Shown here piece by piece: positions 16,702 to 31,376 of a stretch of DNA of 64,000 nt. The stretch spans positions 1 through 64,000 of the forward strand of contig NZ_VLJP01000056.1 in assembly GCF_007829525.1 (NCBI RefSeq). Direction: 5' to 3'. Every line of letters starts with the position of its first letter. Within the stretch, counting starts at the first letter, position 1. The notes below the pieces were generated by a model. That model ran no database searches. It was given only the letters and a program-made list of their open reading frames with translations, and had not been told where the DNA came from. The position numbers and the translations under genes are program-made. Source of the stretch: Mesorhizobium sp. J18. GTDB taxonomy: Bacteria > Pseudomonadota > Alphaproteobacteria > Rhizobiales > Rhizobiaceae.

Positions 16702-16918
16702 GCGCTCGTGTCCGAAGGATGCGTCGCTTTGATGTCGGGGCCTTTAACCCTGTCAATTGGGCGGCGCCATGTCGACCCAGACGCGTCGCCTCTCCCGTGC
16801 GGCGCGCCAAGGCAGGCTTAATCGCCTTCATTCGACAGGCTCCCCCATTTGTACAGACCTCCCGGCTCACAAGGTGACGCCCTCGCGATCCTTGTGTTCA
16901 GGAGAGTTCGTCCGGGTC

Positions 16919-17230
16919 ATGCTGGTCTGTCACTGCAACATCGTCACGCAAAAGGAAGTTGAAGAGGCGATCATAGCGCTTCTCGATGATGACCCTTGGC
17001 AGCTTCTGGTTCCGGCGAAGGTCTATCATTCGCTGAAGAAGCGTGGTCGCTGTTGCGGCTGCTTCCCAAATGTGGTGGATACGATCATTCGGGTAACCGA
17101 AGAGTATCACCGCCGTTCGGACACCGGCGGTGCTGAGATCGTGACACATCTGGACCGCGTGCGTGCATTGCGCGGTCAGTACGGGAGCAGAATGCATGAA
17201 AGGCGAACCACGGGTAATAGAGCGGCTTAA
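16919..17230 (+). CDS. bfd: Bacterioferritin-associated ferredoxin (Bfd-like, [2Fe-2S])
   Basis: Small iron-sulfur protein that passes electrons to bacterioferritin to release stored iron. 103 residues from the ATG at 16919 (GGAGAG 12 bases upstream). The BFD [2Fe-2S] ligands are Cys4 and Cys6 in [10 protein letters not shown] and Cys45/Cys48 in [11 protein letters not shown]; an additional Cys46 sits between. The spacing between the Cys pairs is a few residues longer than in the E. coli protein, and there is a basic C-terminal tail of about 40 residues beyond the helical domain. The frame is open upstream to 16757 but without family similarity. The last 35 bases overlap the bfr coding region, so the two genes are coupled. 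Confidence 0.85.
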
Positions 17231-17684
17231 CGAAGCGCTTTTTCTGGAGCTTGGCGCGGTCAATCAGTATTGGCTGCACTATCGTCTCCTCGATGACTGG
17301 GGCTACACCAAGCTGGCGCAAAAGGAGCGCGCGGAGTCGATCGAGGAAATGCACCACGCCGACAAGCTGGTCGAGCGCATCATTTTCCTCGAAGGCCATC
17401 CCAACCTGCAATCGGTTGGTCCGCTGCGCATTGGCCAGAACGTCAAGGAAGTGCTGGAGGCCGACCTTGCCGGCGAATACGACGCCCGCACCTCCTACAA
17501 GAAATCACGCGAGATTTGCCAGGAACTCGGCGACTACGTGACGATGAAGCTCTTCGAGGAACTGCTGAGGGACGAGGAGGGCCATATCGATTTCCTCGAA
17601 ACGCAGCTTGAGCTCCTGAATTCGATCGGCGAAGAGAAATACGGCCAGCTCAATGCCGGTTCGGCCGACGAGGACGAGGACTAG
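17196..17684 (+). CDS. bfr: Bacterioferritin
   Basis: Heme-containing ferritin that oxidises Fe(II) and stores it as a mineral core in a 24-subunit shell. 162 residues from ATG 17196 (GGGAG upstream), opening [15 protein letters not shown] as in typical Bfr. Ferroxidase ligands Glu18, Glu51 and His54 and the heme-ligating Met52 are all present ([13 protein letters not shown]), and the second helix pair holds EYDARTSY and [14 protein letters not shown] 35-base overlap with bfd argues for co-expression, and the upstream ICE box for iron-responsive control. A strong hairpin follows the stop. Confidence 0.97.
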
Positions 17685-17796: not shown

Positions 17797-18429
17797 TCAA
17801 ATGCTGTCGCAGACTGCGCTCCAGGCAAGCGCCTTGGACAAAGCGGTGACAAAGCGCGCGCCGCCTTCCTCCAAGGTACCGGAATTGTCGATGACGGTGG
17901 CGCCGGGCGTACCATTGGCGTAATTTGCATTGCGCTCCAGCCGCGCAAGTATTTCGTCGTGACTTTCGCGGCCACGTCCGGCGAGCCGCTCCGCCAGCAC
18001 TTCAGCAGGAGCGGTCACGATGATGACCGCCACATTCCGGTAACGCGCTTCAATCTCAGGAATGGCCGCGCGAGAGACGTTGGCGACCACGACGCCTCCC
18101 TTGCGTAGGATATCGTCGACCTCGGCAGGCAGAGCATAGCAAAGGCCGTTTGCTTTCCACGATATCGAGAACCGGCCCTCGGCATGCGCCTTGTCGAAGG
18201 CCTCCTTGCTGATCGTATCGTGATCCTCGTTCGATGTGTCTGCGGGTCGTGTCACGATCCTTCGAACAAAAACGATCGCATCACTGCGCTCAGCGAAATG
18301 CCGCCGGGCAAAATCCATCAGCGTATCCTTGCCTGCACCCGACGGGCCGGCCACGGCAACGAATACGCCGTCACGGATTGGGAAGGCCTGTTCGGAAAGG
18401 GCCTTCTCGATCGTCGCCGAAACTATCAT
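17797..18429 (-). CDS. phnN: Ribose 1,5-bisphosphate phosphokinase PhnN
   Basis: Phosphorylates ribose 1,5-bisphosphate to PRPP, recycling the sugar freed by C-P lyase. 210 residues with a guanylate-kinase-like P-loop, GPSGAGKD (residues 28-35), then VRRIVTRPADTSNEDHDTIS and FSISWKANGLCYALP, which are PhnN hallmarks. ATG 18429 overlaps the phnM stop as ATGA. It is the last gene of the leftward phn unit and ends against the bfr gene through a strong hairpin. Confidence 0.94.
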   Translation of the reverse strand: MIVSATIEKALSEQAFPIRDGVFVAVAGPSGAGKDTLMDFARRHFAERSDAIVFVRRIVTRPADTSNEDHDTISKEAFDKAHAEGRFSISWKANGLCYALPAEVDDILRKGGVVVANVSRAAIPEIEARYRNVAVIIVTAPAEVLAERLAGRGRESHDEILARLERNANYANGTPGATVIDNSGTLEEGGARFVTALSKALAWSAVCDSI

Positions 18430-19562
18430 GCCACCCGGCGGCCCTCACGCCAGACGGTGCGCACCACCGGCACATGCTCGTCAACGCGCACGCGCACGAG
18501 ATCGGCGCGGCGCCCTTCAAGGATCGCTCCCCGATCGTTCAGTCCGATAGCCTCGGCCGGGTTCTTGGATACCATCGCCATAGCCCTGGGAAGGGAAATG
18601 CCCTCCACCACCTCGCCCAGGAAGAAGGCGGACTGGATCAGGCTGAAGGGGATGTAGTCGGAAGACAGGATGTCGAGATTGTCGCTTTCGGCCAGAGTGC
18701 GGGCCGAAATGTTGCCTGAATGCGAGCCGCCGCGCACCACATTGGGCGCACCCATCAGCACGGCCATGCCGGCTTCCTTGGACGCCTTCGCGGCCACGCT
18801 GGTGGTGGGAAATTCGGCGACGCGCACACCCTGACTGACGGCTTCCTCGACATGTTCCAGCGTCGCGTCGTCATGGCTGGCGAGGACGATGCCGCGCTCG
18901 CGGCAGGCTTCCGTCACAGCCTTCCGGTTGGGTGCCGAATTTTCACGCGATTCCTCTATGCGCTTCTCGCAGAAGAGGCGGAATTGTTCTTCCGTCAGCT
19001 TCATCTTGCGCATGTAATAGAGCCTGTAGCTTTCCATCTTGGTGAACTGGCGCTGTCCAGGCGAATGATCCATCAGCGAAGCGAGTTTGACCCGTTCATC
19101 GCCATCGAAGTAAGCGAAGCCCTCCATGCATTCGGGCGAAGAGACTTCGCAGCGCAGATGCAAAAAGTGATCGGCGCGCAAACGGTCGGTCTTGACACTG
19201 TCCTCAATGGCATCGGCGAGTTGACGCATGTCGGCCGGCGTCAAGTCGGCGTCACCGTCGAGACCGATACGAAGCGCATCGAGAACCGTCGTGATGCCGG
19301 AGGAGGCGACCTGGGCATCATGGGCCAGCACGGCCGCGATCGGGTTCCAGCGGACCTTCGGGCGTGGCGCGTAGTGACCCTCGAGGTGGTCGGTATGGAG
19401 CTCGACCAGACCCGGGATGAGGAAATCGCCTTCCAGATCCTCGCCCCTGCGCGTGTCCCCGGCCGAAACATCCAGGATGCGGCCGTCACGGATCGCCACG
19501 CTGCCCGTGATTACCTCGTCGGGCAGCACGATCCGGGCATTCTTCAATACAGTTTCACTCAT
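18426..19562 (-). CDS. phnM: Ribose 1-methylphosphonate 5-triphosphate diphosphatase PhnM
   Basis: Hydrolyses the triphosphate of the ribose-phosphonate intermediate to pyrophosphate plus the 5-phosphate, preparing the substrate of PhnJ. Amidohydrolase-superfamily protein of 378 residues, start ATG 19562, one base after the preceding stop (TAA then A then ATG). The metal site shows as LVELHTDHLEGHY (HxxH pattern typical of PhnM), with DGRILDVSAGD before it and LASHDDATLEHVEEA later. GAPNVVRGGSHSGNISA is a strong PhnM signature. Co-transcribed with the DUF1045 gene and phnN. Confidence 0.95.
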   Translation of the reverse strand: MSETVLKNARIVLPDEVITGSVAIRDGRILDVSAGDTRRGEDLEGDFLIPGLVELHTDHLEGHYAPRPKVRWNPIAAVLAHDAQVASSGITTVLDALRIGLDGDADLTPADMRQLADAIEDSVKTDRLRADHFLHLRCEVSSPECMEGFAYFDGDERVKLASLMDHSPGQRQFTKMESYRLYYMRKMKLTEEQFRLFCEKRIEESRENSAPNRKAVTEACRERGIVLASHDDATLEHVEEAVSQGVRVAEFPTTSVAAKASKEAGMAVLMGAPNVVRGGSHSGNISARTLAESDNLDILSSDYIPFSLIQSAFFLGEVVEGISLPRAMAMVSKNPAEAIGLNDRGAILEGRRADLVRVRVDEHVPVVRTVWREGRRVA

Positions 19563-19563
19563 T

Positions 19564-20271
19564 TTATGCGTACTTTCGTTTTCTGATTGGCCCCATCGGA
19601 TGGAAGGAGCGGATATGGAACGGAGCACCGGGCTCGCTCTCAACAAAAACGGCAAGGCCGTCTACGTCCAATGGCCCGGAAAGCAGCGGCCCGAAAAAAC
19701 CCTCGATCGCTTTGGCGACCCGTTCCTGTTCTGCAGCGGCTACGCGTCCGGTCAAGGTCATATGGAAGCGGAACTCCTCGAAGACGTAAGGATAACCCCA
19801 TTTGTGGAGATTCTTCAGCTGCCCCGGCGTGAGCGCATCCGGATTGCGCCGCTCGATCTCAGCCGCCGTCAGAGGCGCCCGAAAGCGTTCGAAAGCCGTC
19901 ACGACATTCGCGGCCAGATTGGCCAGTGCTGCTGAGCCTTGTGACGGCAGGATGGCGAAGAAGCCGTCCAGGCGACGAAGCGTGATCTCCGGCAGGCATA
20001 CCGGCTCCTGGGATTGGGCAAAATTCTCCACAGCGCCGATGAGTTCGCTTTCGCTGACGCCCTCGGCAAGACGGAACGGGGCCTTCAGTGTAGCATGAAA
20101 GCCGTAACGCCGTGCGGCTGCGGTCTGAAAGGCGACTTCTGCGGGCGATAGAGGACCGGCGGCAGGCGACGGCAGGACTTCTCCGCTGAAGGCATCGCGC
20201 CCAAGCCACTGCGCCGCCCTCCGCGTCAGCGGATGATCCTTTTCCGGAGTAAAATAGATGGCAAAGCGCAT
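19564..20271 (-). CDS. DUF1045 phosphonate-operon protein, 2H phosphoesterase-like
   Basis: A 235-residue protein of the family annotated as putative phosphonate metabolism protein (DUF1045). It carries two HxT motifs, His59-Ala-Thr61 in YGFHATLKAPF and His170-Met-Thr172 in FRFHMTLTG, the hallmark of 2H phosphoesterases that open cyclic phosphates. It sits directly before phnM and phnN in one unit. No phnP, the usual cyclic-ribose phosphodiesterase, is found in the phn locus, so opening the 1,2-cyclic phosphate made by PhnJ is an attractive inferred role. It has its own upstream gap of 117 bp with a possible Pho box. Confidence 0.88.
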   Translation of the reverse strand: MRFAIYFTPEKDHPLTRRAAQWLGRDAFSGEVLPSPAAGPLSPAEVAFQTAAARRYGFHATLKAPFRLAEGVSESELIGAVENFAQSQEPVCLPEITLRRLDGFFAILPSQGSAALANLAANVVTAFERFRAPLTAAEIERRNPDALTPGQLKNLHKWGYPYVFEEFRFHMTLTGRVAAAEQERVAKAIEGFFGPLLSGPLDVDGLAVFVESEPGAPFHIRSFHPMGPIRKRKYA

Positions 20272-20313: not shown

Positions 20314-20331
20314 ATGACAGATTGACGAAAA
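20314..20331 (-). promoter_or_regulatory. Possible Pho box upstream of DUF1045-phnM-phnN
   Basis: On the minus strand TTTTCGTCAATCTGTCAT matches 13 of 18 positions of CTGTCATAAAACTGTCAT by hand count; the downstream half-site is perfect. Ten bases further is TAATTG, a -10-like hexamer at PhoB-type spacing. It is 43 bases before the DUF1045 ATG. Confidence 0.5.
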
Positions 20332-20388: not shown

Positions 20389-21933
20389 CTAGTGAGCCGG
20401 CGCACCAATCAGGCGTTTGCGCAGCCAGTTGGATACATTGTCGAAGACGAAAACCACGATCAGGATCAGGATCACCATATAGGCCACGTTTTCCCAGTCG
20501 GAATTTGTACGCATGGCTTCCCAGAGCTTGAGCCCGATGCCGCCGGCGCCGACCGCGCCGATAATGGTGGCCGACCGCGTATTCGATTCCCAGAAATAGA
20601 GCGCCTGACTGATCAGTACCGGCGCCACTTGAGGCACCACGCCATAACGCTGGACGACGGCCGGCGCGGCCCCCACCGAGCGCACGCCCTCGCGCTGCTT
20701 GTCGTCGATATTTTCCAATGCCTCCGAATAGAGCTTTCCGAATGTCCCGGTATCGGTGAAGAAGATTGCCGATATGCCGGCGAGCGGGCCGGGACCGAAT
20801 GCGCGGGTAAAAAACAGCGCCCAGATGAGCATGTCGACGGAACGCAGGAAATCAAAGAAGCGCTTCAATACCTGGTTCACCAGGCGGTTCGGGTTGATAT
20901 TGCGCGCCGCAGCGAAGGCGAGCGGGAATGCGACAAGCGTGGCAAGAACAGTGCCCGCAAAGGCCATCACTATGGTTTGCAGGAGTTTGAGCCAGACATC
21001 GCCATGCTGCCAGTCGGTATTGTTGACGATGTTGTTCCAGGCGAGGGCGAGATTGGACCTGTTCGGATCGAAGCGCTCACCAGTGAAGATTATCGAGGCA
21101 ACTTCACTGACAGATTTGCCCCAGAAAGGTGAATTCGTGTCGAAAACGAAATTTTCCCACCCTAAGAAACGATGGCGGATTTTGACCTCGTCATCCTCGA
21201 CCTCGGCACGGCCGGCAAAGCCGAAATAGACAAGCACTTTGTCGCCCGGATTCTTCTGCGTGGCCCAGTCCGGCAGTTCGCCCCGGGCTGTCACGCTCCG
21301 CCCGGGTTCGATGTCGAGGACGAGGACTTCATCGCCGCGCGTGACGGTCACCTGTTCGGGCGTCACGTCGATCAGATTGCCGCGGCCGATCTCGACGGTA
21401 GCCTGAACGACTTCTTCCGTCCTCTCCGTTGCCGGGGTTGCGGATCGAGGCGCGCCGGCGGAAGTCCCACCGCCATCCGCTTCGCCCTCGAGCGGACCGA
21501 GGAAGCCGTCGGTCGGCGCCGTTTCCAGCGTCCCCAGAAATCCCTGCTGGGCCGGAGCGCTGTTCTCGGGGGAAGACGGGGCAGAACTCGATATGGTGCG
21601 TTCCACCATCGCTGTCTTCCTGGTGAGCCAGTCCGGATTCGGGTTTGCCCCCAGCGGAGAGGTACGCGGAAACGATATGTCGAGATAGCCGTCCTCGAAT
21701 TCGATATCGGGACGGATCTCATAGGAGATCCAATCGGCGAGATAGTTGCCCGCTATGTCCCAGTTGCCGTTCGATATGACTTGGCCGATGGCGAAGAACC
21801 ACCATGCGAATACGAGGTAGACAGCAATTCCGACTGCTATCAGCCAGCCGGCGCGCTGCTTGCGGGCCGCTGCACGGAATATCTCCGGGTGGCGGGCTGC
21901 TATTGCGGCATCGGATTCGAAGGTCGCGCTCAT
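20389..21933 (-). CDS. phnE2: Phosphonate ABC permease PhnE2 with large periplasmic insert
   Basis: Second permease subunit of the phosphonate importer. 514 residues, far longer than the 260-330 usual for PhnE. A first membrane helix lies at about residues 29-50, then some 260 mostly hydrophilic residues up to about 315, then the MetI-like permease core (KLLQTIVMAFAGTVLATLVA onward). The EAA-type loop reads EGVRSVGAAPAVVQRYGVVPQV. The insert includes a Pro/Ser/Gly-rich stretch with FLGTLE and FLGPLE repeats at 132-137 and 144-149 and a beta-rich part (VTRGDEVLVLDIEPG). It starts three bases after the phnE1 stop. The function of the insert is unknown. Confidence 0.92.
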   Translation of the reverse strand: MSATFESDAAIAARHPEIFRAAARKQRAGWLIAVGIAVYLVFAWWFFAIGQVISNGNWDIAGNYLADWISYEIRPDIEFEDGYLDISFPRTSPLGANPNPDWLTRKTAMVERTISSSAPSSPENSAPAQQGFLGTLETAPTDGFLGPLEGEADGGGTSAGAPRSATPATERTEEVVQATVEIGRGNLIDVTPEQVTVTRGDEVLVLDIEPGRSVTARGELPDWATQKNPGDKVLVYFGFAGRAEVEDDEVKIRHRFLGWENFVFDTNSPFWGKSVSEVASIIFTGERFDPNRSNLALAWNNIVNNTDWQHGDVWLKLLQTIVMAFAGTVLATLVAFPLAFAAARNINPNRLVNQVLKRFFDFLRSVDMLIWALFFTRAFGPGPLAGISAIFFTDTGTFGKLYSEALENIDDKQREGVRSVGAAPAVVQRYGVVPQVAPVLISQALYFWESNTRSATIIGAVGAGGIGLKLWEAMRTNSDWENVAYMVILILIVVFVFDNVSNWLRKRLIGAPAH

Positions 21934-21936
21934 GGA

Positions 21937-22905
21937 TCAGCCTCCGCGTCCAAATTCGAATGCCTGTTCGCCGACAAGCCGACGCCGCAGCCAGGCAGAG
22001 AACTGATCGACGGCAACGATGGTGCAGAAAAGCAGGAGCACGATCGCCAATGTCTTGGCCTCGTGATTGCGGCTGATCGACAGGCGCAGCGCCTCGCCGA
22101 TCCCGCCGCCGCCGACGGCGCCGATTATCGTCGAAGCGCGCACATTGATCTCGAGCCTCAACAGGGCATAGCTGAGGAAATTCGGCATCACCTGCGGCAC
22201 GATGCCGAACCAGATACGCTCGACCCAGTTTGCGCCGGCGGCCCGGAGGCCTTCCTCCGGCTTCAAATCAGCATTCTCCACAACCTCGAAGAACATCTTG
22301 CCGAGAGCGCCGATCGTATGGATCGAAACCGCGATCATGGCAGGCACTGCCCCGATACTGAAAACGGCGAGGAAGAAGCCGGCAATGACGATTTCCGGGA
22401 AAGCGCGCAGAACTTCCATGAAGCGCCGCACAAGGAAGCGCAGCCAGCGCCGCGTCGTCAGATTGGAGGCCGCAAGGAAGCAAAGCAGGAAACCGAAACC
22501 AAAGCCGACCAGAGTGGAGACGAGCGCTATATTGATCGTCTCCAGCATCTTGTAGGCATATTCGGGCAGGTAGAGCGTCTCCGTCAGATAGATGCGCCCT
22601 TCCGGATAGTTGTATTTTAGACTGCCGTCGTAATAGGGCGAGGGCAGGTCGAAAAGGGCGCGCCAGACTTCCCATCCGTCGCGTGGAATCAATTGACCGA
22701 TGAAATCAAAAAAATAAGGCAGGCGGTCGAGGAATTTGCCTGCATTCGAGGCATTGGCAAACCAGAGCGAGCCACTCATGGCCATCACAAGGAAGACCAC
22801 GCTGCCAATCGTATAGAGTCGGCGGCGAGCGGTCATTTCCTGCCAATGGCTTTCGACCGTAAGACCCGCCGGCGAAAGAAGTTTTTCCGGAGCAGTGATG
22901 CTCAT
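21937..22905 (-). CDS. phnE1: Phosphonate ABC permease PhnE1
   Basis: First permease subunit, 322 residues from the ATG at 22905 (GAGGG five bases upstream; a GTG four codons earlier is an alternative). A membrane helix near residues 32-50 precedes a periplasmic stretch of about 75 residues, then five segments of the MetI-like core beginning INIALVSTLVGFGFGFLLC. The coupling loop is EGLRAAGANWVERIWFGIVP. The ending with IIGAVGGGGIGEAL is a PhnE signature. Located between phnD and phnE2 in a phnCDE1E2 order. Confidence 0.95.
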   Translation of the reverse strand: MSITAPEKLLSPAGLTVESHWQEMTARRRLYTIGSVVFLVMAMSGSLWFANASNAGKFLDRLPYFFDFIGQLIPRDGWEVWRALFDLPSPYYDGSLKYNYPEGRIYLTETLYLPEYAYKMLETINIALVSTLVGFGFGFLLCFLAASNLTTRRWLRFLVRRFMEVLRAFPEIVIAGFFLAVFSIGAVPAMIAVSIHTIGALGKMFFEVVENADLKPEEGLRAAGANWVERIWFGIVPQVMPNFLSYALLRLEINVRASTIIGAVGGGGIGEALRLSISRNHEAKTLAIVLLLFCTIVAVDQFSAWLRRRLVGEQAFEFGRGG

Positions 22906-22973
22906 TCCCGCCCTCACACATGAAAGGGGCGCGGCGTGGCAAGACCGCGCGCCGCGCCCCGATACCTGAAATA

Positions 22974-23882
22974 TCAGGAGCCGATCTGCGCCTTACGCGC
23001 GTCGATGATCGGCTGATAGAAGGCAGGCGTCACTTCGGTGTAGCCGGTATAGTCACCGCCCTGGATGGCCGAAAAGCATTCGGGATCCGATTCCGGCAGA
23101 GCAACCATGAATTCCTTGAACTTCGTCTTCATGTCCGCATCCATAGAGGTGCGCACGACGATAGGGCCGTTGGGGATCAGCGGCGATTTCCAGACCTCTA
23201 CGAGGTCATCCATGTCGAGGATGCCCTTTTCGACCATCTTGTGCAGATTGCCGGAGGTATAGCCTTCTTCGAACTCGCCGACGCCCGACGCCCAGGTCGT
23301 ACCGGCATCGAACGTGCCTTTGAGAACTTCGAGAACGAGGTTTTCGTGACCGCCGCCGAAACCGGTCTCGGAGAAATACTCCTCGACAGGCATTCCAAGG
23401 GACTGCGCCAGGGTGACCGCAGGAACGAGATAGCCCGAGGTCGAGTCCGGATCGGCGAAGCCGAGCTTCTTGCCCTTCATATCCTCCAGCGTAGCGATGC
23501 CGGAATCCTTGCGGGCGACCATTACCGAGTAGTAGCCTTTCGAGCCGTCGGTCTGGACCGTGGTAAGGATCGGCTCAACTGCGTCCGGGTTCTCAAGATA
23601 GATCTTGGCGTATCCGGAAGCACCGAGCTCGGCATAGTCGAGCGTGCCGCCGAGCAACCCCTGAATGACGCCATCATAGTCCGCAGCCGGGAAAAGCGAC
23701 ACCTTCTCGACCCCGAGCACTTCCGGCAGCTTTTCTGTCAGGCACTGGAAATTGCGCAGACGGTCGGCCTCGTTCTCGCCGCCCAGGATGCCGACGCGGA
23801 ATTCCTTCAGGTCTTCGGCTTGCGCGGCGCCCATAGCCAACATGCCGAGTGCCACTGCACCCAAAAGTGTCTTTCTGATCAT
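22974..23882 (-). CDS. phnD: Phosphonate-binding protein PhnD
   Basis: Periplasmic solute-binding protein of the phosphonate importer. 302 residues with a Sec signal peptide (MIRKTLLGAVALGMLAMGAA, cleaved after AQA). FRVGILGGENEADRLRNFQC opens the mature fold; GASGYAKIY and GFADPDSTSGYLVP are the conserved phosphonate-pocket segments of PhnD. ATG 23882 is preceded by AGGAGAG six bases away; the frame extends upstream but overlaps nothing recognisable. Lies between phnC and phnE1. Confidence 0.95.
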   Translation of the reverse strand: MIRKTLLGAVALGMLAMGAAQAEDLKEFRVGILGGENEADRLRNFQCLTEKLPEVLGVEKVSLFPAADYDGVIQGLLGGTLDYAELGASGYAKIYLENPDAVEPILTTVQTDGSKGYYSVMVARKDSGIATLEDMKGKKLGFADPDSTSGYLVPAVTLAQSLGMPVEEYFSETGFGGGHENLVLEVLKGTFDAGTTWASGVGEFEEGYTSGNLHKMVEKGILDMDDLVEVWKSPLIPNGPIVVRTSMDADMKTKFKEFMVALPESDPECFSAIQGGDYTGYTEVTPAFYQPIIDARKAQIGS

Positions 23883-23962
23883 GGATTTCTCTCCTGTTCG
23901 CCAAAGTTGGCGGTTCATCCTTGGTGTGAGAAGCCCGTAACGGGGGCGAGTCGATCCCGGGT

Positions 23963-24805
23963 TCAGACGTCCGCCAAAGCGGGGCGGAGGCTGCCGGTGG
24001 ATTCCACCTTCTGCCGCGAAGGCGCAGCTATACTTGTCGAGGTGATCGCCTCGGACAGTTCCTCTCCTTCGGCATCGGCACCGTAGATCCTCCGGACCGC
24101 AGTGGTCGTCAGCTCCTCCGGCGAGCCGTCGAAGACCACGGAACCCTGCGCCATGCCGATGATGCGCTGGCAATAGTTCCGTGCGGTGTCGAGCGTATGA
24201 AGGTTGGTGATGACGGTGATGCCATCACGTGCATTGATGTCACGCAGCGAATCCATCACCACTTTCGCGTTCAGCGGGTCGAGCGATGCGATCGGCTCAT
24301 CTGCAAGGATGATTCTGGGCTCTTGCATCAGTGCCCTTGCGATGGCCACGCGCTGCTGCTGTCCGCCCGAAAGCGTGCCGGCGCGCTGGAGGGCAGTGTG
24401 TGCGATGTCGAGCCTCTCGAGTGCGGCAATGGCCCGGATGCGCTCCTCGCGCGTGAAGATATTGAGAAGATTGAGGGCCGTGGACCTGTGGTTCAGGCGG
24501 CCGAGAAGCACATTGGTGAGCACATCCAGCCGCGGCACGAGGTTGAACTGCTGAAAGATCATGGCACAGTCCCGCTGCCAGCGCCGCAGGGCAGCGCCTC
24601 GCAGCGATGAAACCTCGACCTGATTGAAGTGGATCGAGCCCTCGCTTGGCTCCACCAGGCGATTGATCATGCGCAAGAGAGTGGATTTGCCGGCACCGGA
24701 ACGCCCGATGATGCCGACCATCTGCCCTTGGCCGATTTCGACATCGACGCCGTTCACAGCGATATTCGAGCCGAATCGTCGCGTGATCTTGCGGATTTCC
24801 AGCAT
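23963..24805 (-). CDS. phnC: Phosphonate ABC ATPase PhnC
   Basis: ATPase of the phosphonate importer, 280 residues. Walker [10 protein letters not shown] (residues 34-42), Q-loop [17 protein letters not shown], signature LSGGQQQR, Walker [15 protein letters not shown] and the PhnC-type switch region [16 protein letters not shown]. The C-terminal tail of about 30 residues rich in Ser/Thr is variable in the family. First gene of the phnC-D-E1-E2 unit, with a candidate Pho box 84 bases upstream. Confidence 0.95.
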
Positions 24806-25358: not shown

Positions 25359-25973
25359 TCAGGACCCGTATTTTTCCAGAAAGGCGTCGGCTGACAAGGC
25401 ACGGAAATCATCCAGCGATTCGCGCAGCCGCGCATGATCCCAGTCCCACCAGGCAAGTTCCTCGAACCGGCGGGCGGTGCGCTTGTCGAAGCGCTCGCGT
25501 ATCGGCTTGGCCGGTACGCCGCCGACGATCGTATAGGGAGCCACATCCTTGGTGACCACGGCGCCTGCCCCGATGACGGCACCGTTGCCGACCGTTACGC
25601 CGGGCAGGACGGTCGAGCCGTGTCCGAGCCAGGTATCGTGACCAATGGTCACCGCATTGCCGCGGCGCCAGTCGAAGAATTCCACTTCATGGGCCGCATC
25701 ATCCCAATAGTCCGAGGCGCGATAGGTGAAATGATGCAGCGTAGCCCGCCATGTGGGATGGTTGGTCGCATTGATGCGTACGGCAGCGGCGATATTGGAG
25801 AACTTGCCGATCGTGGCGCACCAGACGCTGCAATCCTGCATGATGTAGGAATAGTCGCCAAGGCTGCTCTCGTGAACACGCGAGCGGGCTTCGACCTCGG
25901 TATAGACACCGAGCGTTGAGTTCTCGACCTCGGCCGTCGGATGGATGAGGGGCGTCTCGGAAAGCCTGGTCAT
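25359..25973 (-). CDS. Phosphonate-locus hexapeptide-repeat acetyltransferase
   Basis: 204-residue left-handed beta-helix acyltransferase. Hexapeptide repeats are plain in AVTIGHDTWLGHGSTVLPG and NGAVIGAGAVVTKDVAPYTI, ending in the canonical VGGVPAKPIR; a FDWRRG loop and the WWDWDHARLRESLDDF tail match the phosphonate-associated subgroup. ATG 25973 overlaps the phnL stop as ATGA, so it belongs to the phnG-L operon. It is not the GNAT-type PhnO; acetylation of aminoalkylphosphonates or of a pathway intermediate is a reasonable but untested guess. Confidence 0.88.
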   Translation of the reverse strand: MTRLSETPLIHPTAEVENSTLGVYTEVEARSRVHESSLGDYSYIMQDCSVWCATIGKFSNIAAAVRINATNHPTWRATLHHFTYRASDYWDDAAHEVEFFDWRRGNAVTIGHDTWLGHGSTVLPGVTVGNGAVIGAGAVVTKDVAPYTIVGGVPAKPIRERFDKRTARRFEELAWWDWDHARLRESLDDFRALSADAFLEKYGS

Positions 25974-26677
25974 GCGGCTGCCTTTCCCGGCGCAAACTGC
26001 GTGACGTCGATGATGCGGTCGGCCACCGCCTCCCGCACTTCCTGATCATGGAAGATGCCGAGCAATGCGGTGCCGGCCTTCTTTTTTTCATCGATCATCT
26101 CGATCACCACCTCGCGATTCGTCTTGTCGAGCGACGCGGTCGGCTCGTCGAGAAGAAGAATCGGATGGTTCGTGATGAAACCGCGGGCAATATTGACGCG
26201 CTGCTGTTCACCACCGGAGAAAGTGGCCGGCGGCAGAGACCACAGCCGCTCGGGAAGGTTGAGGCGGGAAAGCAAGGCGGCGGCCCTGTCCCGGGCTTCG
26301 GTTGTACTCACGCCCCGTGCCGACAGCGGCTCGGCCACGACGTCGATGGCCGGCACACGCGGGACGGTGCGCAGGAATTGGCTGACATAACCGATCGTAT
26401 CGCGGCGAACGGCGAGTACCGTGCGCGGGGTGGCTGTGACCAGATCGATCAGGCCGTGGTCATGCTTGATGATGATCTGGCCCTCATCGGCGGAATAGTT
26501 GCCATAGACCATCTTGAGGATGGAACTCTTGCCGGCACCGGAAGGGCCTCCGAGCACGGCGCATTCACCGGCCCCGACCGAGAACGAGACGTTGACGACA
26601 ACGGGCAGCCTCACGCCGCCGCGCAGATGCATGGTGAAGGTCTTGGCGACTTCGGAAACGACGAGCGGTGTCGGCAT
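25970..26677 (-). CDS. phnL: C-P lyase ABC-like ATPase PhnL
   Basis: 235 residues; ABC-type ATPase that belongs to the C-P lyase system and has no transmembrane partner. Walker A GPSGAGKSS near residue 44, Q-loop region YVSQFLRTVPRVPAIDVV, signature FSGGEQQR, Walker B ILLLDEPTASLD and the FHDQEVRE switch. The LPVVVNVSFSVGAGECAVLGG opening is typical of PhnL. Two bases follow the phnK stop before its ATG, and its own stop overlaps the acetyltransferase start. Confidence 0.95.
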   Translation of the reverse strand: MPTPLVVSEVAKTFTMHLRGGVRLPVVVNVSFSVGAGECAVLGGPSGAGKSSILKMVYGNYSADEGQIIIKHDHGLIDLVTATPRTVLAVRRDTIGYVSQFLRTVPRVPAIDVVAEPLSARGVSTTEARDRAAALLSRLNLPERLWSLPPATFSGGEQQRVNIARGFITNHPILLLDEPTASLDKTNREVVIEMIDEKKKAGTALLGIFHDQEVREAVADRIIDVTQFAPGKAAA

Positions 26678-26679
26678 GG

Positions 26680-27471
26680 TCAGACCTGCAGGATCGAGGA
26701 AACGAGAAGCTGGGTATAGGGCGCGTGAGGGTCGTCCAAGATGCGATCGGTCAGGCCGGTTTCCACCACATGACCGTCCTTCATCACGATCATCCGATGC
26801 GACAGCAGGCGCGCAACAGCGAGATCATGCGTGACGACAATAGCCGCCAGCCCCATATCGTGCACGAGCCCGCGCAGGAGATCGAGGAGCCGGGCCTGAA
26901 CCGACACGTCGAGACCGCCGGTCGGCTCGTCCATGAAGACGAGACGCGGCCCTGTAACCAGATTGCGGGCGATCTGTAGGCGCTGACGCATGCCTCCGGA
27001 AAAAGCGCGGGGTTCGTCATCGATCCGGTCGCCGGGAATTTCCACGCGCCCGAGCCAGTCGCTGGCGGTCGCGCGGATATTGCCGTAATGCCGATCGCCG
27101 ATCGCCATCAGTCGCTCGCCTACATTGGCGCCCGCCGATACCGTCATGCGCAGCCCGTCAGCGGGGTTCTGGTGGACAAAACCCCAATCGGTACGCATCA
27201 GGAAGCGCCGCTCGGCCTCGCTCATGCGGTAAAGATCGCGAAAGATACCATCGCGCATACGGTAGGAAACGGTACCCGATGTCGGCATGAGCCGCGTTGA
27301 AAGACAATTGAGCAGGGTCGTCTTGCCGGAGCCGGACTCGCCGACGACGGCCAGCACTTCGCCCGGCCAGAGCTCGAAGGAGACATTCTCGCATCCGATG
27401 CGAGTGCCATAATATTTGGAAACGGAGGAAACCTTCAGGAGAGGCTCGTCGCCCGATCTTGATGTGGTCAT
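26680..27471 (-). CDS. phnK: C-P lyase ABC-like ATPase PhnK
   Basis: 263 residues from ATG 27471, which overlaps the phnJ stop (ATGA). PhnK docks on the PhnG2H2I2J2 core and uses ATP. Walker A GESGSGKTT near residue 42, MRTDWGFVHQNPADGLRM (PhnK-specific Q-loop), signature FSGGMRQR, Walker B RLVFMDEPTGGLDVS and VTHDLAVARLL. It resembles oligopeptide-transporter ATPases, and its position in the phnG-L unit resolves its role. Confidence 0.95.
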   Translation of the reverse strand: MTTSRSGDEPLLKVSSVSKYYGTRIGCENVSFELWPGEVLAVVGESGSGKTTLLNCLSTRLMPTSGTVSYRMRDGIFRDLYRMSEAERRFLMRTDWGFVHQNPADGLRMTVSAGANVGERLMAIGDRHYGNIRATASDWLGRVEIPGDRIDDEPRAFSGGMRQRLQIARNLVTGPRLVFMDEPTGGLDVSVQARLLDLLRGLVHDMGLAAIVVTHDLAVARLLSHRMIVMKDGHVVETGLTDRILDDPHAPYTQLLVSSILQV

Positions 27472-28346
27472 TGGGCTGCCTCCTCGCTCATATGCCCCGT
27501 ATGTCCGGCTTCCCGTCGCTCCTCGCAATGATCGGTGTCGGAACAGACGAACATGCGCCCGCCGCGATCATCGAGGATCACCTCGTCGAGATAGACATCG
27601 GTGCCGCCGCACAATGCGCAGGGCTGGTCGAATTTCTGGATTTCGAACGGATGGTCCTCGAAATCGAGGCTTTCCACCCGCGTATAAGGGGGGATGGCAT
27701 AGATGCGCTTTTCCCGGCCCGCGCCGAAAAGCTGCAATGCCGGCGACATATGCATCTTCGGATTGTCGAATTTCGGCGTCGGCGAAGGGTCCATGACATA
27801 GCGGCCCTCAACCTTGACCGGATAGGCATAAGTGGTCGCGATATGACCGTGCTTGGCGATATCCTCATAGAGCTTCACATGCATGAGGCCATATTCCTCC
27901 AGCGCGTGCATCTTGCGCGTCTCGGTCTCGCGCGGCTCGAGGAAGCGTAAGGGCTCCGGAATGGGCACCTGATAGACGAGGATCTGGCCTTCCTGCAGAG
28001 GCTTTTCGGGAATTCGATGGCGCGTCTGGATGATCGTCGCCTCGCCCGTATGCGTAGTGACCGCAATCTCGGCCACCTTCTGGAAGAAGGCGCGGATGGA
28101 AACCGCATTGGTTGTGTCGTCAGCGCCCTGGTCGATCACCTTCAAGACGTCGCCCGGGCCGATCACCGACGCCGTGACTTGAACGCCGCCCGTGCCCCAG
28201 CCATAGGGCATCGGCATTTCGCGGCTGGCGAAAGGTACTTGATAGCCAGGAATGGCGATGCCCTTGAGGATCGCGCGGCGGATCATCCGTTTCGTCTGCT
28301 CGTCCAGATAGGCGAAGTTGTAGCGGGCGATGGTCTCGGTGCTCAT
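27468..28346 (-). CDS. phnJ: C-P lyase PhnJ (radical SAM, catalytic subunit)
   Basis: Radical-SAM enzyme that cleaves the carbon-phosphorus bond of ribose 1-alkylphosphonate 5-phosphate, giving the alkane and a 1,2-cyclic ribose phosphate. 292 residues with Cys243, Cys246, Cys268 and Cys274, equivalent to the four conserved cysteines of E. coli PhnJ (cluster trio plus catalytic Cys). Other hallmarks are PYGWGTGGVQVTASVIG, TRHRIPE and HMSPALQLFGAG. Starts inside the phnI stop (ATGA). Confidence 0.97.
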   Translation of the reverse strand: MSTETIARYNFAYLDEQTKRMIRRAILKGIAIPGYQVPFASREMPMPYGWGTGGVQVTASVIGPGDVLKVIDQGADDTTNAVSIRAFFQKVAEIAVTTHTGEATIIQTRHRIPEKPLQEGQILVYQVPIPEPLRFLEPRETETRKMHALEEYGLMHVKLYEDIAKHGHIATTYAYPVKVEGRYVMDPSPTPKFDNPKMHMSPALQLFGAGREKRIYAIPPYTRVESLDFEDHPFEIQKFDQPCALCGGTDVYLDEVILDDRGGRMFVCSDTDHCEERREAGHTGHMSEEAAQ

Positions 28347-29449
28347 TCGGCGGCCTCCTTGCGCTCGTCGTCGCCGGTCTGACGCTTCTCGAATTCCCTC
28401 CGCATGCGGCGGACGAGATCAAGCTCGGCCTGGAAGTCTACATAATGCGGCAGTTTCAGATGCTCGACGAAGCCCGTGGCCTGCACATTGTCGGAATGGG
28501 AGATGACGAATTCCTCATCCTGTGCGGGAGCGATGATATCTTCACCGAGCTCGCGGGCACGCAGGGCGCGATCACAGAGCGCCATGGCCATGGCCTTGCG
28601 CTCCGACTGGCCGAACACCAGCCCATAGCCGCGGGTGAATTGCGGGGGAGCCTTGGCTGAGCCTTTGAACTGGTTGACCATCTGGCACTCGGTCACACGT
28701 ATGCGGCCAAGACTGACAGGGAAATCGAGCTCCGGCACATCGATCTCGATTTCCACTTCGCCGATGCGAATTTCTCCGGCAAAGGGATGATTGCGCGCGT
28801 AGCCGCGTTGTGTCGAATAGCCAAGCGCAAGCAGGAAGCCCTCGTCGCCTCGCGACAGCGCCTGAAGACGCGTGTCACGCTCCATGGGGAACTCCAGAGG
28901 TTCGCGCGTGATGTCGCCTATCTCGTGATCTTCCGGCATGGCGCCATCGCCTTCGATCAGGCCCTCATGGGCGAGGATTTCGGAAACGCGCAGCATGGTT
29001 TCATCTTCCTGAGGCCGGCTTTCCGGAGCCTCCGGCTCGTCGTCGGTCGCAAGCGAAGGGTCGAGCAGGCGATGGGTGTAATCGAAGGTCGGCCCAAGCA
29101 GTTGTCCGCCGGGCAGGTCCTTGTAGGTGGCCGAGACCCGGCGTTCCACAAGCATGCCGCCAGTATTGATCGGCTGCGAATAGCCAAAGCGCGGCAGGGT
29201 CGTGCGATAGGCCCGCAAGAGAAAGATCGCCTCGATCATATCGCCCCGCGCCTGCTTGATGGCCAGCGCGGCAAGCTCCCGGTCATAGAGCGAGCCTTCG
29301 GTCATGACCCTGTCCACGGCCAGCGCAAGTTGGCCGACGATCTGCTCCAGACTTATCGCGGGCACCATACGATCGCCCCGACGCCGATCGGCCAAAAGCC
29401 TGTGGGCGTTGCGGATAGCGGCTTCCCCGCCCTTGACTGCGACATACAT
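28343..29449 (-). CDS. phnI: C-P lyase core subunit PhnI
   Basis: 368 residues from ATG 29449. PhnI, with PhnG, H and L, installs the phosphonate on ribose by displacing adenine from ATP. MYVAVKGGEAAIRNAHRLLA, ARGDMIEAIFLLRAYRTTL and FGYSQPINTGGMLVERR are highly conserved PhnI segments, and DFQAELDLVRRMRREFE marks the C-terminus. Begins two bases after the phnH stop. A longer open frame upstream overlaps phnH and is not used. Confidence 0.96.
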   Translation of the reverse strand: MYVAVKGGEAAIRNAHRLLADRRRGDRMVPAISLEQIVGQLALAVDRVMTEGSLYDRELAALAIKQARGDMIEAIFLLRAYRTTLPRFGYSQPINTGGMLVERRVSATYKDLPGGQLLGPTFDYTHRLLDPSLATDDEPEAPESRPQEDETMLRVSEILAHEGLIEGDGAMPEDHEIGDITREPLEFPMERDTRLQALSRGDEGFLLALGYSTQRGYARNHPFAGEIRIGEVEIEIDVPELDFPVSLGRIRVTECQMVNQFKGSAKAPPQFTRGYGLVFGQSERKAMAMALCDRALRARELGEDIIAPAQDEEFVISHSDNVQATGFVEHLKLPHYVDFQAELDLVRRMRREFEKRQTGDDERKEAAE

Positions 29450-29451
29450 GG

Positions 29452-30060
29452 CTATTCCTCCGCAGTGATGCGTGTTGTGCGCGGCAGGGCGGCAACGCCT
29501 TCGCGTGCTACGAGAACAAGGTCGATGCCGCGAGGGAAGCGTGCGCGATTCTGCACCCATTGCTCGGCAAAGTGGCGGGGCATGGGCGAAGGCGCCAGTC
29601 GCGCCGTGGTTCGGATGCCGGGTCCTTCTAGCGCAATGGCGGGGCCATTGGCCAAAGTCTCTACCTGCAGGACCAGCGTGGCCGAGCGGTCGGGATAGTC
29701 CTGCGTGCCTTGGGCGAAATTGTCGAGACTGATCAAGGTTGCCGGATAGGACACGAAAGCGAAATGCGCATCCGACGGATTGGTCACGATCGGTGCACCG
29801 GTATGGAAAGCGAGCCACGCCCGCACGGCTTCTTCGGCCTGGAGCGGCGGATCGAGCCAGATCGGAGTATCATGATCGCAAAGGGTCAGCGCGACGGCCC
29901 CGGCCTCAGGTGTCAGGGGCGCAGGCGGACGCGCGGCAGCCAGGCTTTTCTGTATCGTACCGGGCCGGGCCAGTGCTTCCATCACTGCACGAAAGGTGGC
30001 CTGGGCGTCAAAGACGGGTTGCCTGAAGCCGCCCTCAATCGACTTGCCGTGAAAGCTCAT
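29452..30060 (-). CDS. phnH: C-P lyase core subunit PhnH
   Basis: 202 residues; structural and activation subunit of the C-P lyase core. GGFRQPVFDAQATFRAVMEALARPG is the signature opening, with TLCDHDTPIWLD, GTQDYPDRSATLVLQV and FPRGIDLVLV following. ATG 30060 overlaps the phnG stop by one base (TGATG), a tight coupling. No unusual feature. Confidence 0.95.
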   Translation of the reverse strand: MSFHGKSIEGGFRQPVFDAQATFRAVMEALARPGTIQKSLAAARPPAPLTPEAGAVALTLCDHDTPIWLDPPLQAEEAVRAWLAFHTGAPIVTNPSDAHFAFVSYPATLISLDNFAQGTQDYPDRSATLVLQVETLANGPAIALEGPGIRTTARLAPSPMPRHFAEQWVQNRARFPRGIDLVLVAREGVAALPRTTRITAEE

Positions 30061-30521
30061 CAGTCTTCTCCGCGCACGAGTGTGAAGAAATCGACCTTGG
30101 TCGCGGCGGTTTCCGCGCGCTTTCGCGTATCGGCTTCGGCGAGGGCTTGGCGCAGGGGAGACAGGATACGTTCCTCGACCAGCTCGGCATGCTCCGCTCG
30201 CTGACGCAGGGCGTCTATGATGGCCGCGACCCGCACCTTCTCCAGGTCGCGGCCGAGCGCATAAGCATGACCGACCTCTCCTTCCGGCAGCTTAACCGTG
30301 GCGCGCGTCACTGTGGCCTCACCGAAATTGAACGGCGCACCGCCGCCGCCCATGCGCCCGCGCAAGGTCACGAGCCCGGTCTCCGGTCCCCGCAAGAGCT
30401 GGGCATCATCGGGCAGGCCGGATTGTTCCCAAAGTCGCATGAGGTCTCGCGCGGGCGCGGCGGCCAGAATGGCCATTGCCTCCCGGCGCCGCTCCGTCGT
30501 CTGGTGATTTCTGGGTGTCAT
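30060..30521 (-). CDS. phnG: C-P lyase core subunit PhnG
   Basis: 153 residues from ATG 30521; first gene of the C-P lyase operon. ERRREAMAILAAAPARDL, GLVTLRGRMGGGGAPFNFGE and VTRATVKLPEGEVGHAYALGRD are family hallmarks, the last with the conserved GH...GRD region. The PhnF-like operator begins 16 bases upstream of its ATG and a Pho box lies 71 bases upstream, so both regulators could act on this promoter. A longer frame starting upstream would run through the operator and is rejected. Confidence 0.95.
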   Translation of the reverse strand: MTPRNHQTTERRREAMAILAAAPARDLMRLWEQSGLPDDAQLLRGPETGLVTLRGRMGGGGAPFNFGEATVTRATVKLPEGEVGHAYALGRDLEKVRVAAIIDALRQRAEHAELVEERILSPLRQALAEADTRKRAETAATKVDFFTLVRGED

Positions 30522-30536
30522 CTTGTTACCATGAAT

Positions 30537-30556
30537 TTGTCTATTGATATAGACAA
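30537..30556. promoter_or_regulatory. Candidate PhnF operator
   Basis: TTGTCTAT (30537-30544) and ATAGACAA (30549-30556) are a perfect inverted repeat with a TGAT spacer, between the divergent phnG and phnF starts. It overlaps the -35 of the phnF promoter and lies just before phnG, as expected for an autoregulating GntR repressor. An extra CCATACAA at 30557-30564 is identical to a half-site in the hut operator. Confidence 0.75.
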
Positions 30557-30572
30557 CCATACAAATTATAAT
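30544..30572 (+). promoter_or_regulatory. Promoter for phnF
   Basis: TTGATA (30544-30549), 17-base spacer, TATAAT (30567-30572): a near-consensus sigma-70 promoter reading toward phnF and overlapped by the PhnF-like operator. Confidence 0.65.
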
Positions 30573-30591
30573 CTCTCTGTAGTGGTTGTCC

Positions 30592-30609
30592 ATGACGTGA
30601 TTGTGACAG
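30592..30609 (-). promoter_or_regulatory. Candidate Pho box for phnG operon
   Basis: Minus-strand CTGTCACAATCACGTCAT matches 13 of 18 consensus positions, with the two half-sites CTGTCAC and CGTCAT at the correct 11-base repeat. TACAGA follows exactly ten bases downstream as a -10, the spacing seen at PhoB-activated promoters. Confidence 0.68.
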
Positions 30610-30641: not shown

Positions 30642-31376
30642 GTGATCGAGCGGCGCAGCGGCATAGCCCTGTGGCGCCAGATAGCGGATCGCATCCGTCT
30701 CGGATTGAATGCCGGGCTCGCCGGCCCTGACGGCCGACTACCCCCCGAGATAGCGCTTGCCGAACGTTACGGCGTGAACCGCCATACAGTGCGGGCGGCG
30801 ATTTCCGCTTTGGTACAGGAAGGAGTTCTGCGTGCCGAACAGGGGCGCGGCACTTTCGTCGAGCGGCGCAGGCGGCTTGCCTATCCGATCGGCGTCCGCA
30901 CGCGTTTTTCCGCCGGCCTTGCTGGGCAGGCACGGGACCGGCGCGGACATTTGATCGAACACGCCGAGGAGCCGGCTTCGGAAGAAGTCGCCAAGGCCCT
31001 GGGGCTTGGCGTCGGCGCCTCCGTCATCCGGCTGGAAACGCTTGCCGAGGCCGATGGGCGTCCCGTCTCGCGCGCGAGAAGCTGGTTTGACGGCGTAAGA
31101 TTCCGCGGCATTGAGCAGCATTTCGCCGAAACAGGCTCGATAACCGCCTCCCTGCTGGCCCTAGGCGTCGAAGACTACTTCCGCCATTCAACGATCGTTT
31201 CCGCGCGCCATGCGGATTCGGAAGACCTGAAGGACCTGGCACTTTCCCCGGGGGCCATCGTCCTGGTGACGGTTGCCTTGAATGTCGATGCCGAAGGTGT
31301 GCCGCTGCAATATTCCGAGACACGCTTTGCAGCCGACCGGGTGGAACTTCATGTGGGGAGTGGCGATCAGCCGTAA
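30642..31376 (+). CDS. phnF: GntR-family regulator PhnF
   Basis: Likely repressor of the phn genes. 244 residues from GTG 30642 (AAGGAGACGG just upstream), close to the 241 of E. coli PhnF. IERRSGIALWRQIADRIRLGL and LPPEIALAERYGVNRHTVRAAI form the winged HTH; the UTRA ligand domain follows (VIRLETLAEADGRPVSRARSWFD, then QYSETRFAADRVEL). Divergent from phnG across a 120-bp region holding its probable operator and a Pho box. An open frame continues upstream through the operator but has no start signal there. The next genes (ynjBCD) are co-directional 101 bp away. Confidence 0.92.
   Translation: MIERRSGIALWRQIADRIRLGLNAGLAGPDGRLPPEIALAERYGVNRHTVRAAISALVQEGVLRAEQGRGTFVERRRRLAYPIGVRTRFSAGLAGQARDRRGHLIEHAEEPASEEVAKALGLGVGASVIRLETLAEADGRPVSRARSWFDGVRFRGIEQHFAETGSITASLLALGVEDYFRHSTIVSARHADSEDLKDLALSPGAIVLVTVALNVDAEGVPLQYSETRFAADRVELHVGSGDQP

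Follow-up and report, generated by a model that had tools for sequence, protein, structure and literature searches.

The closest described counterpart of the gene studied here is the 2H protein of C-P lyase operons known as RcsF or DUF1045 (TIGR03223); this phn 'RcsF' is unrelated to the Rcs lipoprotein. The gene is a further member of that family with no material difference from it, and it shares the position beside phnM and phnN and the proposed function (Martinez, 2013; Hove-Jensen, 2014, MMBR, as cited in PMC8235418). Escherichia coli PhnP, a phosphoribosyl cyclic phosphodiesterase of the metallo-beta-lactamase (MBL) fold (TIGR03307), has the same pathway slot by phnN and the reaction that we propose for DUF1045, whereas fold and chemistry are unrelated, with a metal site in PhnP and two His-x-Thr motifs without a metal motif in DUF1045. 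The CPDase of plants and yeast (Arabidopsis structures 1FSI and 1JH6) has the 2H fold and opens a ribose 1,2-cyclic phosphate leaving the 1-phosphate, which is the same ring opening as that of PhnP and gives the kind of product that PhnN needs; however, it is only about 10% identical to DUF1045, and its substrate has ADP in place of the 5-phosphate, in an RNA-repair context. Bacillus subtilis YjcG and E. coli LigT/ThpR, which rank high among the PDB structures most similar in fold, belong to the 2H superfamily but to different families, and to our knowledge they have not been found in phosphonate operons.

A PhnP-substitute role for the 2H gene was proposed earlier by Podzelinska (2009), as cited in the review PMC10574752. 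Martinez (2013; PMC3840354) saw in the 2H gene a likely counterpart of PhnP, and PMC8235418 repeats the proposal that DUF1045 carries out the PhnP step, citing Hove-Jensen (2014). The Rhodobacteraceae fosmid B3_TF_MPn_2, without phnP and with a 2H gene, allowed E. coli ΔphnHIJKLMNOP to grow on methylphosphonate (PMC3840354), which is strong evidence at the level of the whole cluster, not of the single gene; its 2H gene is presumably DUF1045, judging from family and neighbourhood. In Phaeobacter, a DUF1045 protein stands in a phosphorus-stress response table together with PhnI, PhnJ, PhnL and PhnM (PMC10132767). Our literature search, which covered open-licence papers, returned no assay of a purified DUF1045 protein. 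The preliminary description of this DNA had called DUF1045 a family without an agreed reaction, which understates a literature that already proposes the PhnP reaction; DUF1045 in place of PhnP is an established hypothesis, not a new one. What is new here is an inactive PhnP next to an intact DUF1045, a motif contrast between phn and non-phn copies, and a larger survey with a caveat on independence.

In the window (the whole 64,000-nucleotide stretch of Mesorhizobium sp. J18 that was analysed, contig NZ_VLJP01000056.1), the TIGR03223 member is set between phnE2 and phnM, inside a C-P lyase locus with the following genes.

17797 to 18429, minus strand: phnN, ribose 1,5-bisphosphokinase (TIGR02322, 215.9 bits, cut-off 156)
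18426 to 19562, minus strand: phnM, RPnTP diphosphatase (NF011983, 642.9 bits; TIGR02318, 492.6 bits), its start being the ATG one base past the DUF1045 stop
19564 to 20271, minus strand: DUF1045/TIGR03223 2H phosphoesterase, 235 aa (profile matches, sequence)
20389 to 21933, minus strand: phnE2 permease (TIGR01097, 249.7 bits, residues 298-509)
21937 to 22917, minus strand: phnE1 permease (TIGR01097, 247.9 bits)
22974 to 23900 (start approximate), minus strand: phnD, phosphonate-binding protein (sequence and position between phnC and phnE1, no HMM)
23963 to 24805, minus strand: phnC transporter ATPase (TIGR02315, 323.6 bits)
25359 to 25973, minus strand: putative phn hexapeptide-repeat transferase (TIGR03308, 316.4 bits)
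25970 to 26677, minus strand: phnL (TIGR02324, 338.8 bits)
26680 to 27528 (longest ORF, the true start probably lying some 80 bases further in), minus strand: phnK (TIGR02323, 408 bits)
27468 to 28346, minus strand: phnJ, C-P lyase (PF06007, 498.4 bits)
28343 to 29449, minus strand: phnI (PF05861, 547.6 bits)
29452 to 30060, minus strand: phnH (PF05845, 230.7 bits)
30060 to 30593 (start uncertain), minus strand: phnG (PF06754, 162.4 bits)
30675 to 31376 (start approximate), plus strand: phnF, divergent GntR/UTRA regulator (PF07702, 97.2 bits; PF00392, 61.5 bits)

The DUF1045 protein scored 280.8 bits against TIGR03223, above the cut-off of 248.95, as well as 209.8 bits against PF06299 (DUF1045) and 38.1 bits against the 2'-5' RNA ligase superfamily PF13563. 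One base separates its stop codon from the phnM ATG (19562-19560), and phnM in turn shares 4 bp with phnN, forming a DUF1045-phnM-phnN block in agreement with the preliminary description, which had placed the gene directly before phnM and phnN. The phn genes listed there were recovered by HMM, except phnD, which was assigned by sequence and position, and the locus is complete; the TIGR03308 hexapeptide-repeat protein is an additional member absent from that list. The phnE2 product has about 300 extra N-terminal residues ahead of its PhnE domain match.

The absence of phnP, which had been claimed for the locus, extends to the whole genome in a TIGR03307 search of the 4.26-Mb assembly (99% complete), where the best matches, at 27.9, 27.2 and 23.9 bits, stayed far below the cut-off of 272. 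These weak matches are PqqB (TIGR02108, 392 bits) and an MBL hydrolase encoded in the gene order holB-metG-tatD-MBL (G000 C8:88956-89774, equal to L004:6957-7775). The DUF1045 protein itself has no PhnP profile match and no HxHxDH motif, and is not a member of TIGR03307. The metG-tatD-linked hydrolase could in principle carry out the PhnP step, leaving DUF1045 some other task in the pathway: its HxHxDH motif is intact, it has distant PhnP similarity (57 bits), similar matches occur in many alphaproteobacterial genomes, and papers counting phnP in Rhodobacteraceae (Marivita; PMC8774927) possibly did so through such paralogues. We consider this very improbable. The protein is far closer to another MBL family (NF038231, 234 bits) and has housekeeping neighbours, and matches of this type are common in Alphaproteobacteria whether PhnJ is present or not, with the same scores in three PhnJ-less genomes (G083, G183 and G208), so that it looks like a housekeeping protein; such paralogues may be the source of some published phnP calls in Rhodobacteraceae, that in Marivita (PMC8774927) among them. 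Nor would it account for the presence of DUF1045 next to phnM and phnN in precisely those loci from which PhnP is absent.

This complementary distribution was followed across genomes. The first sample comprised 398 genomes of the phylum Pseudomonadota, with PhnJ over its cut-off in 83, of which 80 were searched for both enzymes: DUF1045 was present in 59 and PhnP over cut-off in 19, with both in none and neither in two. A second sample, from the class of genome G246, added nine PhnJ genomes, six with DUF1045 and three with PhnP. Of the 89 PhnJ genomes pooled, 65 had DUF1045 and 22 had a PhnP above the family cut-off; none had both in functional form, and two had neither. The mutual exclusivity of DUF1045 and phnP that had been suggested as a check thus held; these counts are not independent events, since two to three changes on the PhnJ tree suffice to explain the two states, in part because operons travel as whole units, and phylogenetically independent pairs gave two contrasts only, too few for a test. 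A smaller published survey had the same outcome, with 27 of 54 operons carrying phnP and 16 carrying the 2H gene without phnP (as quoted in PMC10574752). Four loci (L096, L098, L100 and L103) are extra phn clusters with a PhnJ of a second and divergent type (about 380-397 bits), in genomes that also have a standard PhnJ.

In all 19 PhnP loci fetched, phnP directly adjoins phnN in the order phnM-phnN-phnP, and among 80 DUF1045 loci from named genomes, phnM was found in 74, phnN in 64 and phnJ within reach in 48. None of these 80 loci has a PhnP with an intact catalytic site, and the sole PhnP-like gene among them is a pseudoenzyme. The gene order around the DUF1045 block varies widely, and in split rhizobial loci (L073-L076) DUF1045-phnM-phnN forms a separate block apart from phnG-L. 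In four genomes of the Rhodobacteraceae-like family f17 (G325, G299, G319 and G321), the only DUF1045 sits outside the phn locus. An apparent DUF1045-hexapeptide fusion in G091 was rejected, as it is in fact two in-frame genes with a stop between them.

The PhnP-like gene was found in G476 and its sister genome G594 (the latter a MAG contig, JAQVKR010000045.1, locus L153), where phnM, DUF1045, phnN and the altered gene, here PhnP', lie in one operon.

L146:4202-5000 (G476): PhnP', open frame, metal ligands lost
L147:4876-5680 (G594): PhnP', open frame, metal ligands lost

These proteins scored 142 and 117 bits against the 272-bit cut-off. In the alignment, the metal motif HYHMDH is replaced by DWRPGR or GWGTGR, and the residues equivalent to H143 and D164 of E. 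coli PhnP are lost as well; what is left of the site is the cysteine motif and a single distal histidine motif. The complete set of metal ligands is kept in 21 of 21 true PhnPs checked. The DUF1045 proteins of both operons are intact (294 bits). Between the two genomes dN/dS is about 0.49 for PhnP', 0.42 for phnN and 0.38 for DUF1045; because the frame is open and its dN/dS is near that of phnN, PhnP' looks like a pseudoenzyme rather than debris. The catalytic PhnP was lost in the presence of DUF1045, which is what one would expect under the replacement hypothesis. PhnP' occurs in one lineage only and counts as one event, and the order of G476 is represented in the sample by two genomes.

The preliminary description had also reported two intact HxT motifs, which lie exactly where it had placed them.

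20089 to 20097, minus strand: first 2H motif, His59-Ala-Thr61 (sequence; H59 and T61 identical in 137/137 phn-linked homologues)
19756 to 19764, minus strand: second 2H motif, His170-Met-Thr172 (sequence; H170 in 137/137, residue 172 being T in 135 and S in 2)

The comparison covered 157 DUF1045 homologues, 137 of them phn-linked, and the latter also show no variation at Y56, R131 and Y160, with R142 present in 135 of them. A paralogue clade (L093, L094, L117 and L122) carries T61V together with T172P in three of its four members; it adjoins PuuE allantoinase and OHCU decarboxylase, and its host genomes also carry a phn-linked copy. The L094 paralogue lies in a urate/allantoin operon (PuuE, OHCU decarboxylase and FAD oxidoreductase). 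It might be argued from the few state changes on the PhnJ tree that DUF1045 was carried along as a passenger in a single ancestral alphaproteobacterial operon, linked by descent and with no defined role, but this is barely credible when every phn-linked copy keeps the motifs and the threonines are lost in three of the four non-phn paralogues, and when the block survives locus splitting amid a highly variable gene order.

The protein of the window is predicted with high confidence to have the 2H fold. Its AlphaFold model (pLDDT 96.1, pTM 0.91) was compared by Foldseek with the PDB and matched 2H proteins, YjcG first (E 2.4e-7), followed by Arabidopsis CPDase, LigT (probability 1.00 to both), Usb1 and AKAP18; the Arabidopsis CPDase 'of Appr>p' occupied ranks 3-6. 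The TM-scores of the predicted model were moderate (0.4-0.5 on the query), so the 2H fold class is secure and close kinship is not. A sequence search of the PDB with DUF1045 gave no match. Identity with PhnPP, a PHP-fold diphosphodiesterase, was rejected, as the predicted fold is 2H and a Pfam scan found no PHP domain.

Genomic replacement, the position by phnM and phnN, the decayed PhnP, motif conservation and fold similarity all support the earlier claim that DUF1045 performs the PhnP step, and we consider it very probable that this C-P lyase pathway uses DUF1045 as its phosphoribosyl cyclic phosphodiesterase, in non-orthologous replacement of PhnP. The data show the gene, its motifs and its genomic partners; which reaction it catalyses, in which direction and with what part for each residue, we infer as follows. 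PhnJ would release 5-phospho-alpha-D-ribosyl 1,2-cyclic phosphate, which would enter the 2H cleft of DUF1045, where His59 and His170 would serve as general base and acid and Thr61 and Thr172 would hold the phosphate. Water would open the bond to O2, the phosphate would stay on C1, and the resulting ribose 1,5-bisphosphate would be converted by PhnN to PRPP.

Three groups of genomes depart from this pattern, the first being the four of family f17 described above. Two phn loci (L066 in G374 and L067 in G377) keep phnG-N and have neither phnP nor DUF1045, and there the PhnP step is apparently done another way or lost. Conversely, DUF1045 is present without PhnJ in seven genomes (G095, G103, G083, G175, G183, G208 and G322; L086-L092), six of which also lack PhnN, so it may have another role there; it may be a remnant or an enzyme with another substrate. 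A wider role of DUF1045, reaching beyond the C-P lyase pathway, seems rather unlikely to us. The last two groups could be taken to mean that a third enzyme opens the ring and that the substrate of DUF1045 is a different by-product, cyclic or phosphodiester, or else a phosphonate ester as a side substrate, and an alternative is known in PhnPP, which makes ribose 5-phosphate instead (mentioned in PMC8774927). We regard this as quite improbable: a dead PhnP by an intact DUF1045 implies a takeover of the very reaction that PhnP performed, and in the subset searched for PhnN all 16 genomes with PhnJ had it, so that production of ribose 1,5-bisphosphate presumably continues.

If an assay confirms DUF1045 as the cyclic phosphodiesterase, a family still named a 'domain of unknown function' would gain a reaction, and the C-P lyase pathway would be complete on paper for the sampled phosphonate-using Alphaproteobacteria, which include rhizobia and marine roseobacters able to form methane from methylphosphonate. 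Two unrelated folds would then clearly serve a single reaction, and one lineage would still preserve a fossil of the enzyme that had been replaced.

With regard to regulation, a sigma-70 scan found no promoter, and a candidate Pho-box near DUF1045 (20314-20331, three mismatches) was set aside as unconvincing, with nine matches in the window against a chance expectation of 3.6. Just beyond phnN, BFD-like [2Fe-2S] and ferritin-family genes (16757-17684, plus strand) converge on the phn operon.
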